Assembly (NCBI GenBank): GCA_012841305.1 | Contig: DUVA01000094.1 | Location: 1 to 33,861 of the forward strand | Direction of reading: 5' to 3' | Length of the DNA: 33,861 bases | DNA from: Bacillota bacterium | Lineage (GTDB): Bacteria > Bacillota > SHA-98 > UBA4971 | Shown here: piece after piece, positions 1-9,069 of the stretch | Numbering within the stretch: position 1 is the stretch's first letter | Layout: each line of letters starts with the position of its first letter | The notes under the pieces: model-generated | Database searches by the model: none | Seen by the model: the letters and a program-made list of their open reading frames with translations, nothing else | Told to the model about the DNA's origin: nothing | Position numbers and translations under genes: made by a program

Positions 1-38
1 ACATATGGAATCGCTTTCTAACAGCGTCCTAGTGGAAC

Positions 39-197
39 ATGGCTCACCCAGCGAGCCATTCAAGGGGATCTAAGGGCTTCTAAGTGAGCGAATGGCTTAC
101 CCCATGAGCCGTTCGAGCGGATCTGATAGCTTTCCGAGGGTCGGTTGGCTTACCCAGTGAGCCAATCGCGAGGATCTGATAGCGCCCTATGCCGTCA
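39..197. repeat. Three tandem 53-bp hairpin repeats
   Basis: Copies lie at 39-91, 92-144 and 145-197 and align without gaps; GGATCT is at the same offset in each (66, 119, 172). Each copy carries a stem-loop with a 7-nt loop of the type ACCCAGY. The stem is about 7 bp in copy 1 and about 10 bp, counting G-U pairs, in copies 2 and 3. The stem flanks differ between copies but still pair, which suggests selection on the fold. The last copy overlaps the stop codon of the MATE gene. No T-run follows, so these are not ordinary terminators. The array may continue beyond the left edge. Confidence 0.8.
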
Positions 198-5365: not shown

Positions 5366-5434
5366 GAATTTGCTCTGGGAGTTGGCTCGTAGATTTTGCC
5401 CTGGGATTTCGCGCCGGAGGGAGACTCGATAATC

Positions 5435-6664
5435 GTGGGAGACATGGTCTTACAGGCACGGGCCAAACTTAACTTGACCCTCAAAATCCTAGGACGGCGT
5501 CCCGACGGATACCATGACATCGAGTCGGTGGTGCAGTCGGTCGATCTTTGCGACCGAATAACTCTTCGGACTTGCTCTCCTGTTTACGCCGGGAGAAGTG
5601 GCCAGGAGATTGATATCACGGTTACCTGTAACGATACGAGTATTCCAACCGGTCGCGGCAATTTGGCGGTGGAAGCAGTCCTCGCTCTGGCCAACTTCGT
5701 CGGCCTAAGAGCTTCCGCAGAAACAGACGCCTGCCCGCCAGCTTCCGTGGAAATGGAAGCCGATCCGCGAGCTTCCGTGGAAATGGACGCCGATCCGGGA
5801 GTTTCTGTAGAAACAGACGCCTGCCCGCGAGCTTCCGTGGAAATAGACATGGGAAAAAGAATACCTGTAGCTGCGGGCTTAGGAGGCGGAAGCGCTGATG
5901 CAGCAGCAGTCCTCATAGGACTCAATCACCTATGGAGACTGGGCTTGGGCGAAAGAGAGTTAATGGCTGTCGGTGAGAGCCTCGGGGCAGATATTCCTTT
6001 TTGCGTCACAGGTGGGACAGGAGTTATTCGGGGGAAAGGTGAACGAATCGAATTGCTGCCGACGCCTGATGACTTGTGGTTTGTTGTTGTAACATTGCCG
6101 GAAAGAGTAAGCACTGCCCAGGCTTACACCACGTTTGATCAACTCACCGAGACTACCGGTGCCTATGATGCCGGCTCTTATGATCTTGCTGTCGATGCAA
6201 CTGATGTTACTTCAGGTATGGTTCGGGCTCTCAGAGCGGGCGAAGTTCAGGATATTGCCGGTAGGCTCACCAATGATCTGGAGTACTCCGCAGTGTCAAT
6301 CGTGCCTCAAATTGCCCGGGCGAAAGAGGCGCTGCTTGCTGCCGGGGCAGTTGGAGTCGGGATGTCAGGGAGTGGCCCTACAGTATTCGGTATTGCTGAT
6401 AGCAGGGAAAAAGCAGAAGCAATCTGTGACACATTGAGACTGACATCATCCGGTGGGGCGCTGGAACAGGTATCGTCCTATGATGTGCCGAAATTGTCAT
6501 CGTCCGGCGGTACGCCAAAACAGGCATCATCAGCTTGCGCGAAGGAGCAGGCGTCATCGGGCGGCACTTTTGCCATTGGAGCGTTCAAAGAGGTATTTGT
6601 GTGTAGAGCGGTTTCACAAGGAGTTGCTTATGCACGGGTGCCAGATGCCGGTGCAGGGCACTAA
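5435..6664 (+). CDS. ispE: 4-diphosphocytidyl-2-C-methyl-D-erythritol kinase with two repeat-rich insertions
   Basis: GHMP-kinase-family enzyme of the MEP isoprenoid pathway; it phosphorylates CDP-methylerythritol with ATP in the cytoplasm. The N-terminal ARAKLNLTLKILGRRPDGYH signature, the ATP loop PVAAGLGGGSADAAA (about 143-157) and the C-terminal GVGMSGSGPTVFGI are intact, so the enzyme is probably active. At 409 residues it is about 110 longer than usual. Residues 93-132 are four 10-residue repeats inserted just before the strand leading to the ATP loop, and about 337-381 is a Ser/Gly/Lys/Gln-rich repetitive stretch inserted before the last strand. The GTG at 5435 is chosen because GGAGGGAG lies 11 bases upstream; the ATG at 5444 is possible. 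Confidence 0.93.
   Translation: MGDMVLQARAKLNLTLKILGRRPDGYHDIESVVQSVDLCDRITLRTCSPVYAGRSGQEIDITVTCNDTSIPTGRGNLAVEAVLALANFVGLRASAETDACPPASVEMEADPRASVEMDADPGVSVETDACPRASVEIDMGKRIPVAAGLGGGSADAAAVLIGLNHLWRLGLGERELMAVGESLGADIPFCVTGGTGVIRGKGERIELLPTPDDLWFVVVTLPERVSTAQAYTTFDQLTETTGAYDAGSYDLAVDATDVTSGMVRALRAGEVQDIAGRLTNDLEYSAVSIVPQIARAKEALLAAGAVGVGMSGSGPTVFGIADSREKAEAICDTLRLTSSGGALEQVSSYDVPKLSSSGGTPKQASSACAKEQASSGGTFAIGAFKEVFVCRAVSQGVAYARVPDAGAGH
5711..5851 (+). repeat. Four 30-bp in-frame tandem repeats inside ispE
   Basis: Units lie at 5711-5740, 5741-5770, 5771-5800 and 5801-5830, with a partial fifth from 5831 that merges into the conserved ispE strand. They encode ASAETDACPP, ASVEMEADPR, ASVEMDADPG and VSVETDACPR, then ASVEID. 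The outer two units resemble each other (ETDACP) and the inner two resemble each other (EM-ADP), giving an A-B-B-A order. The frame is kept throughout. Confidence 0.95.
6446..6571 (+). repeat. Imperfect repeats in the 3' part of ispE
   Basis: Three irregular units each starting near TCATCSGGYGG encode SSGGALEQ, SSGGTPKQ and SSGGTF, with KEQASS between. They separate the GHMP core from the final short strand (FKEVFVCRAV). The repetitive character continues past the stop codon, where GGGTGCCA and CGCACGCTG are each repeated between 6630 and 6740. Confidence 0.7.
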
Positions 6665-8080: not shown

Positions 8081-8261
8081 GACAGCTACTTGTTGAGAGG
8101 TCGGAACCATCCTTTGAGAGGTTGAAACCACCCTGCGGCTGCTTACGTTTACTCACGCTCACCTCAGGAATTCCGTAACCTATGGAGCGTAGCATGTGAT
8201 GAACCAGCATGGACACTGCAAGGGAGCAATTAGAAGAGGCAGTTTGATATTGGAAAATGTC

Positions 8262-8300
8262 GAATTAATCGAGGTATCCCGTGGAATTAATCGAGTTATC
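8262..8300. repeat. 22-bp direct repeat, two copies
   Basis: GAATTAATCGAGKTATC occurs at 8262-8278 and 8284-8300 with one mismatch. It lies in the less structured part of the intergenic region after spoVG. Confidence 0.7.
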
Positions 8301-8814
8301 TCAACGTGTCCGGTTCGCAAACACTACTCGTCCTTCCTCATGTGCTTCCTCAAGACCCCTAGCCCCCATACGCTGAAGGTGGTGCTACTTGGCGCTTACG
8401 GTTAACATGAACATGATCGATTTTGAACCACTTCTTTCAAAACGCCGCTTCAATTTCAACCAGCTTTTTGGATTTCTGCAGCAAAAAGCCGATAAGTGTT
8501 CGGTTTTCGACCACCCCCGACGGCACAAGTGGTAGATTCTCGACCCAACTTTTCGCTTGAAGAGGGATTTTGATAGCCCTTTGAGGCTCATGTGGAAGGT
8601 TCTCTACCACTTTTTTGGAAAAGATGGCAGTTTTCCGCCCACCTTTCCAAAAAATGTGGTCGATTTTGTATCCACAATCCTCATGTGAAGGGATTCTCTG
8701 TGATGAGGTGTTCTATATTCTACCCCCCAGAGGCATGTTCGTGGTCGGTAAACAACCATTAACAAGCCCTCTGGGGGTCGATTCTCAACCATCCGGGCAA
8801 TTGCGCTGAAAAAG

Positions 8815-8866
8815 ATGGTTGAAAATGAACCACCGAAGAGCCTCTCGGTGGTTGTTTTTCAACCAT
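8815..8866. repeat. Long stem-loop, 20 paired bases
   Basis: ATGGTTGAAAA (8815-8825) pairs perfectly with TTTTCAACCAT (8856-8866). After a 2x2 internal loop, AACCACCGA (8828-8836) pairs with TCGGTGGTT (8845-8853) around an 8-nt loop. The neighbouring hairpin at 8724-8777 has the same design: a 10-bp outer arm CCCCCAGAGG/CCTCTGGGGG, then shorter inner stems. Confidence 0.9.
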
Positions 8867-9069
8867 GCGAACTGTCGCCTCGCAAAAGGTGGCAAAAAGT
8901 CACACGGCAAAGAAGGATTTGCGGTTGATCCCAGCCACCTAGGTAATTGCGCTGAAAAGAGTGGTGGAAAATCACACAGCAAAAGGGGTTCAGTTGGAAC
9001 ATATATCTAGGGAATACGGTATTTGCGGAATTCCTGGCGGTGGGGAGGGATTGGGAAGGCTGGGTAGTC

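Follow-up and report, generated by a model that had tools for sequence, protein, structure and literature searches.

The DNA analysed here, called the window in its full length of 33,861 nucleotides, is contig DUVA01000094.1 of a Bacillota genome (assembly GCA_012841305.1, the own genome or G000 below). It opens with a tandem array that runs up to the end of a MATE-family gene, and it contains, further along, a second copy of the same element family that has a spoVG gene and a tRNA-Gln gene as its neighbours (Table 1).

Table 1. Repeats, element ends and the adjoining MATE gene in the window
Feature	Position	Strand	Basis and remarks
Left-end module remnant leading into array	1-36	+	31/36 identical to G002 copy of locus; contig starts here
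53-bp unit 1	37-89	+	Palindrome 40-58, TGGCTC-n7-GAGCCA; pattern and covariance model
53-bp unit 2	90-142	+	Palindrome 93-111; pattern and covariance model
Unit 3	143-183	+	Palindrome 146-164; similarity ends at 183; pattern and covariance model
MATE-family gene, 470 aa	187-1599	-	Pfam PF01554, 9e-60; array abuts its stop codon 187-189
Second element copy, 872 bp	8165-9036	-	TIR scan, end HMMs, empty site in four relatives
Terminal inverted repeat, right-end type, CAGGAATTCCGTAACC	8165-8180	+	TIR scan
Type-2/3 palindrome motif, ten matches	8307-8978	.	TGKTYGA-n3-TCRAMCA, up to 3 mismatches
Terminal inverted repeat, left-end type, CAGGAATTCCGCAAAT	9021-9036	-	TIR scan

Within positions 37-195, each unit opens with a TGGCTY-n7-GAGCCR palindrome, which is followed by a linker containing GGATCTRA. 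The preliminary description of the locus had reported three ungapped copies, and this was borne out: the copies (40-77, 93-130 and 146-183) are spaced by 53 and 53 bases, and the outer two are 74% and 84% identical to the middle one. The stem-loop pattern matches the window exactly at 40, 93 and 146. With up to three mismatches there are six matches against 0.30 expected, two of which represent the opposite strand of the same palindromes, while one lies elsewhere (24253). With the covariance model described below, the three units reach E=5e-14, 2e-13 and 1e-9, all three being among its 28 training units; the array is absent from the list of Tandem Repeats Finder at a score of 30. Two details needed correction. 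The loop had been described as ACCCAGY-type throughout, but the three loops read ACCCAGC, ACCCCAT and ACCCAGT, and copy 2 departs from that type. The last copy had been said to overlap the stop codon of the MATE gene, but its similarity stops short of it, and only the notional 53-bp frame of copy 3 reaches that far.

Extent of the family of 53-bp units

With the first 230 bases of the window as query, blastn matched 15 places in the own genome, counting the window; at L007 the match covers no more than the 3' end of another copy of the MATE gene. At L194 (G000:C203), a second MATE copy with 90% protein identity has a 3' flank that resembles the syntenic flank of the congener G006, and this copy is either a paralog or a contamination in the metagenome-assembled genome (MAG).

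The covariance model was built from 28 aligned units with a mean column identity of 73% over the whole unit. In the own genome it produced 124 matches at E<=1, many of which are the opposite strand of an already counted palindrome. At E<=0.01, seven of the 61 genomes match. Within the genus, the own genome contributes 76 matches and four congeners contribute 49, 36, 12 and 5, some of them again opposite strands of one palindrome. Five of the seven genus members hence carry the family; in two of the five, G003 and G004, the signal is weak, with array matches of at most 32.3 bits. At the same threshold, the model found nothing in the congeners G006 and G001 or in the six sister-genus genomes; in the more distant genomes G013 and G047 there was one weak match each.

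The preliminary description had named an absence of further copies, with pairing not conserved in relatives, as the outcome that would speak against it. Further copies do exist, although the pattern of pairing differs from what selection on base pairing alone would predict (see below). The 63 fetched loci, which had been picked because earlier searches matched there, contain 180 matches, and 165 non-overlapping units in 61 loci and five genomes are left after overlap removal (74 in G000, 41 in G005, 36 in G002, 9 in G004 and 5 in G003, only a few loci having been fetched from the last two). There are 1 to 9 units per locus, and neighbours are exactly 53 apart in 79 of the 92 spacings under 70 bp. 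Of 20 arrays tested in the own genome, 17 are free of open frames of at least 90 aa that overlap them by more than 30 bases. The unusual repeat behind the MATE gene is thereby recognised as part of a genus-level family of composite mobile elements, whose architecture is described below. The family may also help to explain why the own genome is split into 278 contigs, as a contig end is no more than 100 bases away from 15 of its 27 fetched array loci. Two loci near contig edges (L073:1-241 and L078:4694-4827) show units head-to-head, either true inverted arrays or assembly artefacts.

A pattern scan of wider genome contigs returned 27 stretches, of which 14 came from UBA4981 or AS23ysBPME_252 and one from FIZM01. 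The 12 single matches in unrelated organisms were taken as chance (a hand estimate of the chance expectation is about 7.5). Viral contigs gave one pattern match.

Ends, target sites and origin of the element

An all-against-all comparison of the intergenic DNA surrounding the arrays revealed flanks shared among the matches listed. One locus reads GCAGGAATTCCGCAAGC, left-end sequence, six palindromes, other repeats and then the same inverted repeat again. This terminal inverted repeat, the 16-bp CAGGAATTCCGCAAGC, was found with up to three changes at both ends of 14 copies; the left repeat of L145 has three. With up to two mismatches it matches the own genome 70 times, as compared to 33 times for the reversed pattern, and with up to one mismatch the corresponding numbers are 30 versus 2 in G005 and 7 versus 1 in G002. 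It is rare in the other congeners, with 3 matches against 1 for the control in G003, 1 against 0 in G004, 1 against 1 in G006 and 0 in G001.

The end-module HMMs were seeded entirely from the own genome, and the presence of ends is an independent result only in G002 and G005. Across these three genomes, 56 of the 58 end-module matches (31 left and 25 right) lie on the expected side and strand of the array; among the 58, three loci give one end in two pieces. Both matches that are out of place belong to a single G005 locus, L202 (G005:C152:21300-22900), where the order of ends and array fits two neighbouring or nested copies. At least one end-module match is present at 41 of the 61 array loci, and six of the other 20 lie within 100 bases of a contig edge. 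A separate blastn count in the own genome yielded 18 left-end and 17 right-end matches.

Both ends are present in 14 copies. Nine of these are sequenced throughout, with lengths from 351 to 1035 bp. The other five, all from G005, hold N runs that are due to an assembly gap or masking (L181 at G005:C86:17614-17807, L197, L198, L200 and L202), and their lengths, 194 to 1133 bp as given, and interiors are uncertain. Perfect target duplications at the exact ends occur in three of the 14 copies, L181 and L200 among them (CCTCAACCC, ATAAATATT and GATCTGACTG; 9, 9 and 10 bp). A duplication score of at least 6 was obtained for 8 of 14 copies and for 1 of 182 mismatched flank pairs, with small shifts allowed in both. 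In the nine copies without N, the longest frame inside an element has 127 aa, and another of 204 aa runs out through a right end; neither has a Pfam match.

The usual anatomy begins with a left end that opens with the inverted repeat; it spans 180-220 bp in the own genome, and the matches are shorter in G002 and G005. Next there is usually at least one 53-bp unit with its TGGCTC-n7-GAGCCA palindrome, often followed by arrays of one or two further palindrome types. A right end of about 165 bp closes the element with the same inverted repeat. Complete copies would on this view be bounded by CAGGAATTCC...GGAATTCCTG with duplications of 9-10 bp.

The second copy in the window has both terminal inverted repeats and type-2 palindromes but no 53-bp array, and its longest frame is 69 aa. 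The end HMMs place its right end at 8165-8289 (plus strand) and its left end at 9036-8990 (minus strand). The ten type-2/3 matches start at 8307, 8414, 8446, 8497, 8530, 8742, 8775, 8816, 8849 and 8962. No target duplication is recognisable at this copy (best 3 of 8). The copy is missing at the same site in G005, G006, G004 and G001, where 4, 70, 58 and 81 positions, respectively, separate the ends of the aligned flanks; in the window, the distance between those alignment ends is about 920 to 1014 positions. The site of G003 is rearranged on its tRNA side.

At the MATE locus of the window, the left-end HMM finds no match; only 36 bases of the contig precede unit 1, so that whatever lies further out is beyond the window. 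The MATE gene of G002 is likewise followed by an array, with a left-end remnant just upstream of the units; the G002 locus offers 55 more bases, and positions 56-117 of the left-end HMM match there, 20 bp from the array (E=2e-4). No right-end module was found by the end HMMs after unit 3, and the MATE-linked copy has neither a right end nor a target duplication, its left end being visible only in G002. We read this array as a truncated element copy, which consists of a left-end remnant and three units and has lost its right end. The array is absent from the syntenic MATE loci of G006 and G001, the two congeners without any model match, both of which have the MATE and spoVG region on one contig in the same order and orientation.

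A comparison of the two MATE arrays points to a fast turnover of the units. Between G000 and G002, 120 of 149 aligned columns are identical (about 20% different), whereas 5 of 471 third positions of the MATE gene differ (1%). Hardly any change is seen in the first hairpin or in the third unit, and what lies between the two has been replaced. The divergence is best explained by unit exchange rather than by slow compensation. Since it is much faster than that of the neighbouring gene, arrays would grow, shrink and swap units by recombination.

The sister genus provides a clue to the origin of the element. Against the sister-genus loci, which were fetched via the inverted repeat and share the first 16 bases by choice, the right-end HMM gives E=2.6e-14 over 117 positions and the left-end HMM 5.8e-6 over 127 positions, or 3.5e-5 for the stretch without the inverted repeat; reversed sequences used as a control yielded nothing below 6.7. 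Related left or right ends occur at L168, L172, L178-L180, L183, L184 and L187, several of them solitary or at contig edges. Just inside one sister-genus left end lies a 229-aa gene fragment that matches DDE_Tnp_1 (PF01609) at E=1e-8, with 35.7 bits versus a cut-off of 23. In NCBIfam the fragment reached no cut-off and had only sub-cut-off matches to IS4, IS701, ISAs1 and IS1380. Relatives of this transposase (P0002) are found in G009 and G012, with short fragments in G010 and G014; there are none at E<=1e-10 in the seven genomes of the genus, MAGs being prone to the loss of repeated genes, and none at 1e-5 in a plasmid collection. The gene is known as fragments, and no single contig showed both a left and a right end of the sister-genus transposon. 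We infer a DDE transposon of the sister-genus type as the ancestor of the gene-less element or as the source of its mobility.

The transposase searches in the genus covered relatives of P0002, PF13808 and PF01797. ISAs1 elements have the end CAGGG and an 8-10 bp duplication, and an ISAs1 partner had been guessed from the end sequence and the duplication length. A single PF13808 match was found in 13 genomes (G011), with no good inverted-repeat match at its locus, and no PF13808 partner with matching ends emerged.

The array as a probable part of a mobile element

The units are dispersed over the genomes in a fixed architecture, some copies are flanked by target duplications of 9-10 bp, one insertion site is empty in relatives, and the ends are homologous to those of the sister genus. 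Our preferred reading, to which we assign a probability of about 0.82, is that a composite, non-autonomous, MITE-like transposable element carries the 53-bp repeats as its internal tandem array. A DDE transposase of the sister-genus type, acting in trans, would have inserted the copies. As no relative of this transposase was found in the seven genomes of the genus, the copies may by now be stranded.

By design, the closest kind of element is BOX of Streptococcus pneumoniae. BOX consists of boxA, a variable number of boxB units and boxC, has inverted repeats, target duplications and IS-like ends, and measures 67-637 bp; its authors favour a parasitic role over a host function, though expression may be affected (PMC3049150, here and below in the portion accessible to us). 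Both are chromosome-wide composite MITEs with two end modules, variable tandem units, inverted repeats and target duplications (PMC3049150). The order of end module, tandem units and end module is what the 56 of 58 end matches and the 1-9 units per locus show here. The present family differs in that its 53-bp unit carries a palindrome of its own, in that there are three palindrome types, in the length of its fully sequenced copies (up to 1035 bp) and in belonging to another genus; the transposase related to it (PF01609) is known here from the sister genus alone. The family would thus work like BOX by analogy of design, BOX and ISSpn2 being taken from their descriptions, and we do not claim membership. 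The literature searched, as far as accessible, yielded no earlier description of this element family, which shows a BOX-like design, with two ends and a variable palindrome array, in a genus for which none was found.

The Chunjie, QMITE, Nezha and Correia MITEs are likewise non-coding and have terminal inverted repeats, target duplications and decayed copies, but they are typically under 500 bp, and the accessible portions of their descriptions mention no variable tandem palindrome array (PMC10969869, PMC3049150). Measured against MITEs in general, the 16-bp inverted repeats of the 14 copies fall within the usual range of about 4-30 bp, and none of the nine fully sequenced copies encodes a transposase of its own. 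Target duplications are perfect in 3 of 14 copies, partial in others and lacking in the complete copy of the window. Seven of the nine copies are 570-1035 bp long and exceed the usual 500 bp, which is a typical rather than a defining limit; the other two measure 351 and 403 bp. As to ends in common with an autonomous IS, the homologous ends and the gene fragment beside the left one, with its PF01609 domain of DDE transposons, were seen in the sister genus only.

Three other readings have to be set against the mobile element. The repeats could be a simple satellite, spread by slippage or recombination with no link to a mobile element, next to which the neighbouring repeats are coincidental. The fast turnover of units, their variable number at each locus and the 20 of 61 loci without end matches agree with this, but a coincidence does not account for order and strand being as expected in nearly all end matches of three genomes, or for the target duplications and the empty site, and we regard a satellite as improbable. 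Palindromes of the REP/BIME type, mobilised by a RAYT (a Y1 tyrosine transposase), are likewise short, extragenic and clustered (PMC3733652, accessible in part), and a remnant of a Y1_Tnp gene exists in the own genome, with a short match in G005. However, that remnant is split over two frames with a stop, Y1 matches number none in G002, which has arrays, and two in G001, which has no arrays, and no intact RAYT was seen in G000 or G002. GTAG and CGTC tags occur near the stem ends 7 and 6 times in 111 units, where a rough chance expectation is 7.8 each; neither the stem tag nor an associated Y1 transposase is thus in evidence. In contrast to REP/BIME as described in the accessible part of PMC3733652, the units stand in regular 53-bp tandem order inside a longer element with inverted repeats and target duplications. 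With the tags at chance level and no RAYT match in G002, we rejected this reading, which we consider even less probable than the satellite. A CRISPR-like array would also have palindromic repeats at regular spacing, but the "spacers" are themselves alike between units and loci (the 73% column identity holds for the whole unit), and the copies diverge and are dispersed in groups of 1-9; this reading is very improbable.

Palindromes as sequence or as structure

The preliminary description had also held that the stem flanks change together and still pair, and had taken this as a sign of selection for folding. In the first 28 units, 88.6% of the cells pair, which none of 500 shuffles reached and slid versions approached at most to 39.6%; the covariation score of these units was matched by 2 of 500 shuffles. 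We then compared observed pairing with that expected if the two sides were independent in a larger set. Of the 165 units, 40 were dropped for scoring under 30 bits and others for being shorter than 40 nt, for a poor core or for N, which left 117 (59 from G000, 29 from G002, 28 from G005 and 1 from G004) with 93 distinct hairpins; their shared ancestry is uncorrected in the values that follow. Observed pairing is within 0.01 of independence at pairs 1-25 (0.74 versus 0.75), 2-24, 4-22 (0.95 versus 0.95), 5-21, 6-20, 7-19, 8-18 and 11-15, and close to it at 9-17 (0.86 versus 0.84). A clear excess exists at pair 3-23 (0.52 versus 0.39 expected), which is broken in about half of the hairpins, and at pair 10-16 (0.77 versus 0.48), where mostly two loop types are involved. 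The inference of selection for folding is thus only partly borne out, with excess pairing at these two pairs and none at most others, and flanks that covary in the 28 units and in some copies do not do so in the family at large. All in all, the earlier observation was partly confirmed.

These results bear on the possibility that the units are RNA hairpins in the 3' ends of transcripts, which serve stability, processing or attenuation and whose base pairing is under selection. The high pairing of the 28 units, their palindromic form in every genome with clear copies, the position of the array behind a stop codon and the double changes at pairs 3-23 and 10-16 all speak for it; in unit 2, pair 3-23 differs on both sides, with A-T in the window and T-A in G002. 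Units 2 and 3 do fold as hairpins, but the minimum-energy RNA structure of copy 1 alone differs from the expected hairpin, and the folding z-scores of the three units are modest (-0.95, -1.56 and -2.08). In unit 3, pair 2-24 is a G-T wobble in the window and an A-C mismatch in G002. No terminator-like sites were found in positions 1-700. An Rfam search of the window, L065 and L190 at gathering score found only a tRNA and the FMN riboswitch, both outside the elements, and the array corresponds to no RNA described in Rfam. Above all, most pairs show no excess over independence in the 93 distinct hairpins, which weakens the selection of RNA hairpins as the main account, and we consider it unlikely, though less so than the three readings discussed above. 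The TGGCTC/GAGCCA core is nearly invariant; it is hence silent for or against pairing, but it shows that the sequence is kept. A palindromic DNA sequence as the target of selection fits better than an RNA fold, though there may also be a structural role. The family offers a testable case of palindromes that look conserved as DNA sites and not as RNA hairpins. The FMN riboswitch (RF00050, minus strand) is at L065:3929-4080, about 70 bases from an element copy.

The second palindrome motif, TGKTYGA-n3-TCRAMCA, has 112 matches in 20.5 kb (25 stretches in or beside elements) versus 1 in 17.3 kb (six other loci). Because a blind palindrome detector at a strict threshold missed most sites, their spacing was analysed with motif-defined sites, leaving out L142, a duplicate of L065, and spacings above 130. 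The spacings are discrete, with 32-33 in 46 of 85 cases, followed by 41, 51, 61-62, 72-74 and others. For the 19 distinct spacings, the mean cosine at 10.5 bp is 0.57, which was reached by 0 of 5000 random sets; for six basic spacings that include 53 and were chosen by us, it is 0.82, matched by 14 of 5000. These statistics are an indication only, as the modules share ancestry and some of the values are sums of others, so that they are not independent. Spacings near multiples of 10.5 bp hint at sites on one face of the helix, and this arrangement, if true, would speak for a bound protein.

Since the half-sites are conserved as sequence and the spacing is near whole helical turns, the palindromes are candidate sites for a dimer. 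Repeated binding sites for a dimeric DNA-binding protein would be their most likely role, which is the least certain part of our interpretation. A more far-reaching and rather doubtful idea, if somewhat less so than that of RNA hairpins, is that the element may act as a mobile scaffold of phased sites, in which the three palindromes, with centres 32-33, 41, 51, 53, 61-62 and 72-74 bp apart, present one helix face to a putative dimeric protein, and the copies could rewire or insulate their neighbours or titrate the protein. In that case, the protein may be a nucleoid protein, a repressor of the host or a regulator that belongs to the element itself.

A further tandem repeat is present in the window at 5709-5848, with 4.7 copies of a 30-bp unit. 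It lies inside a GHMP-kinase frame (5396-6664), which, judged by eye, is probably ispE, and adds a repeated ten-residue stretch directly before the glycine-rich motif PVAAGLGGGSADAA of this frame.
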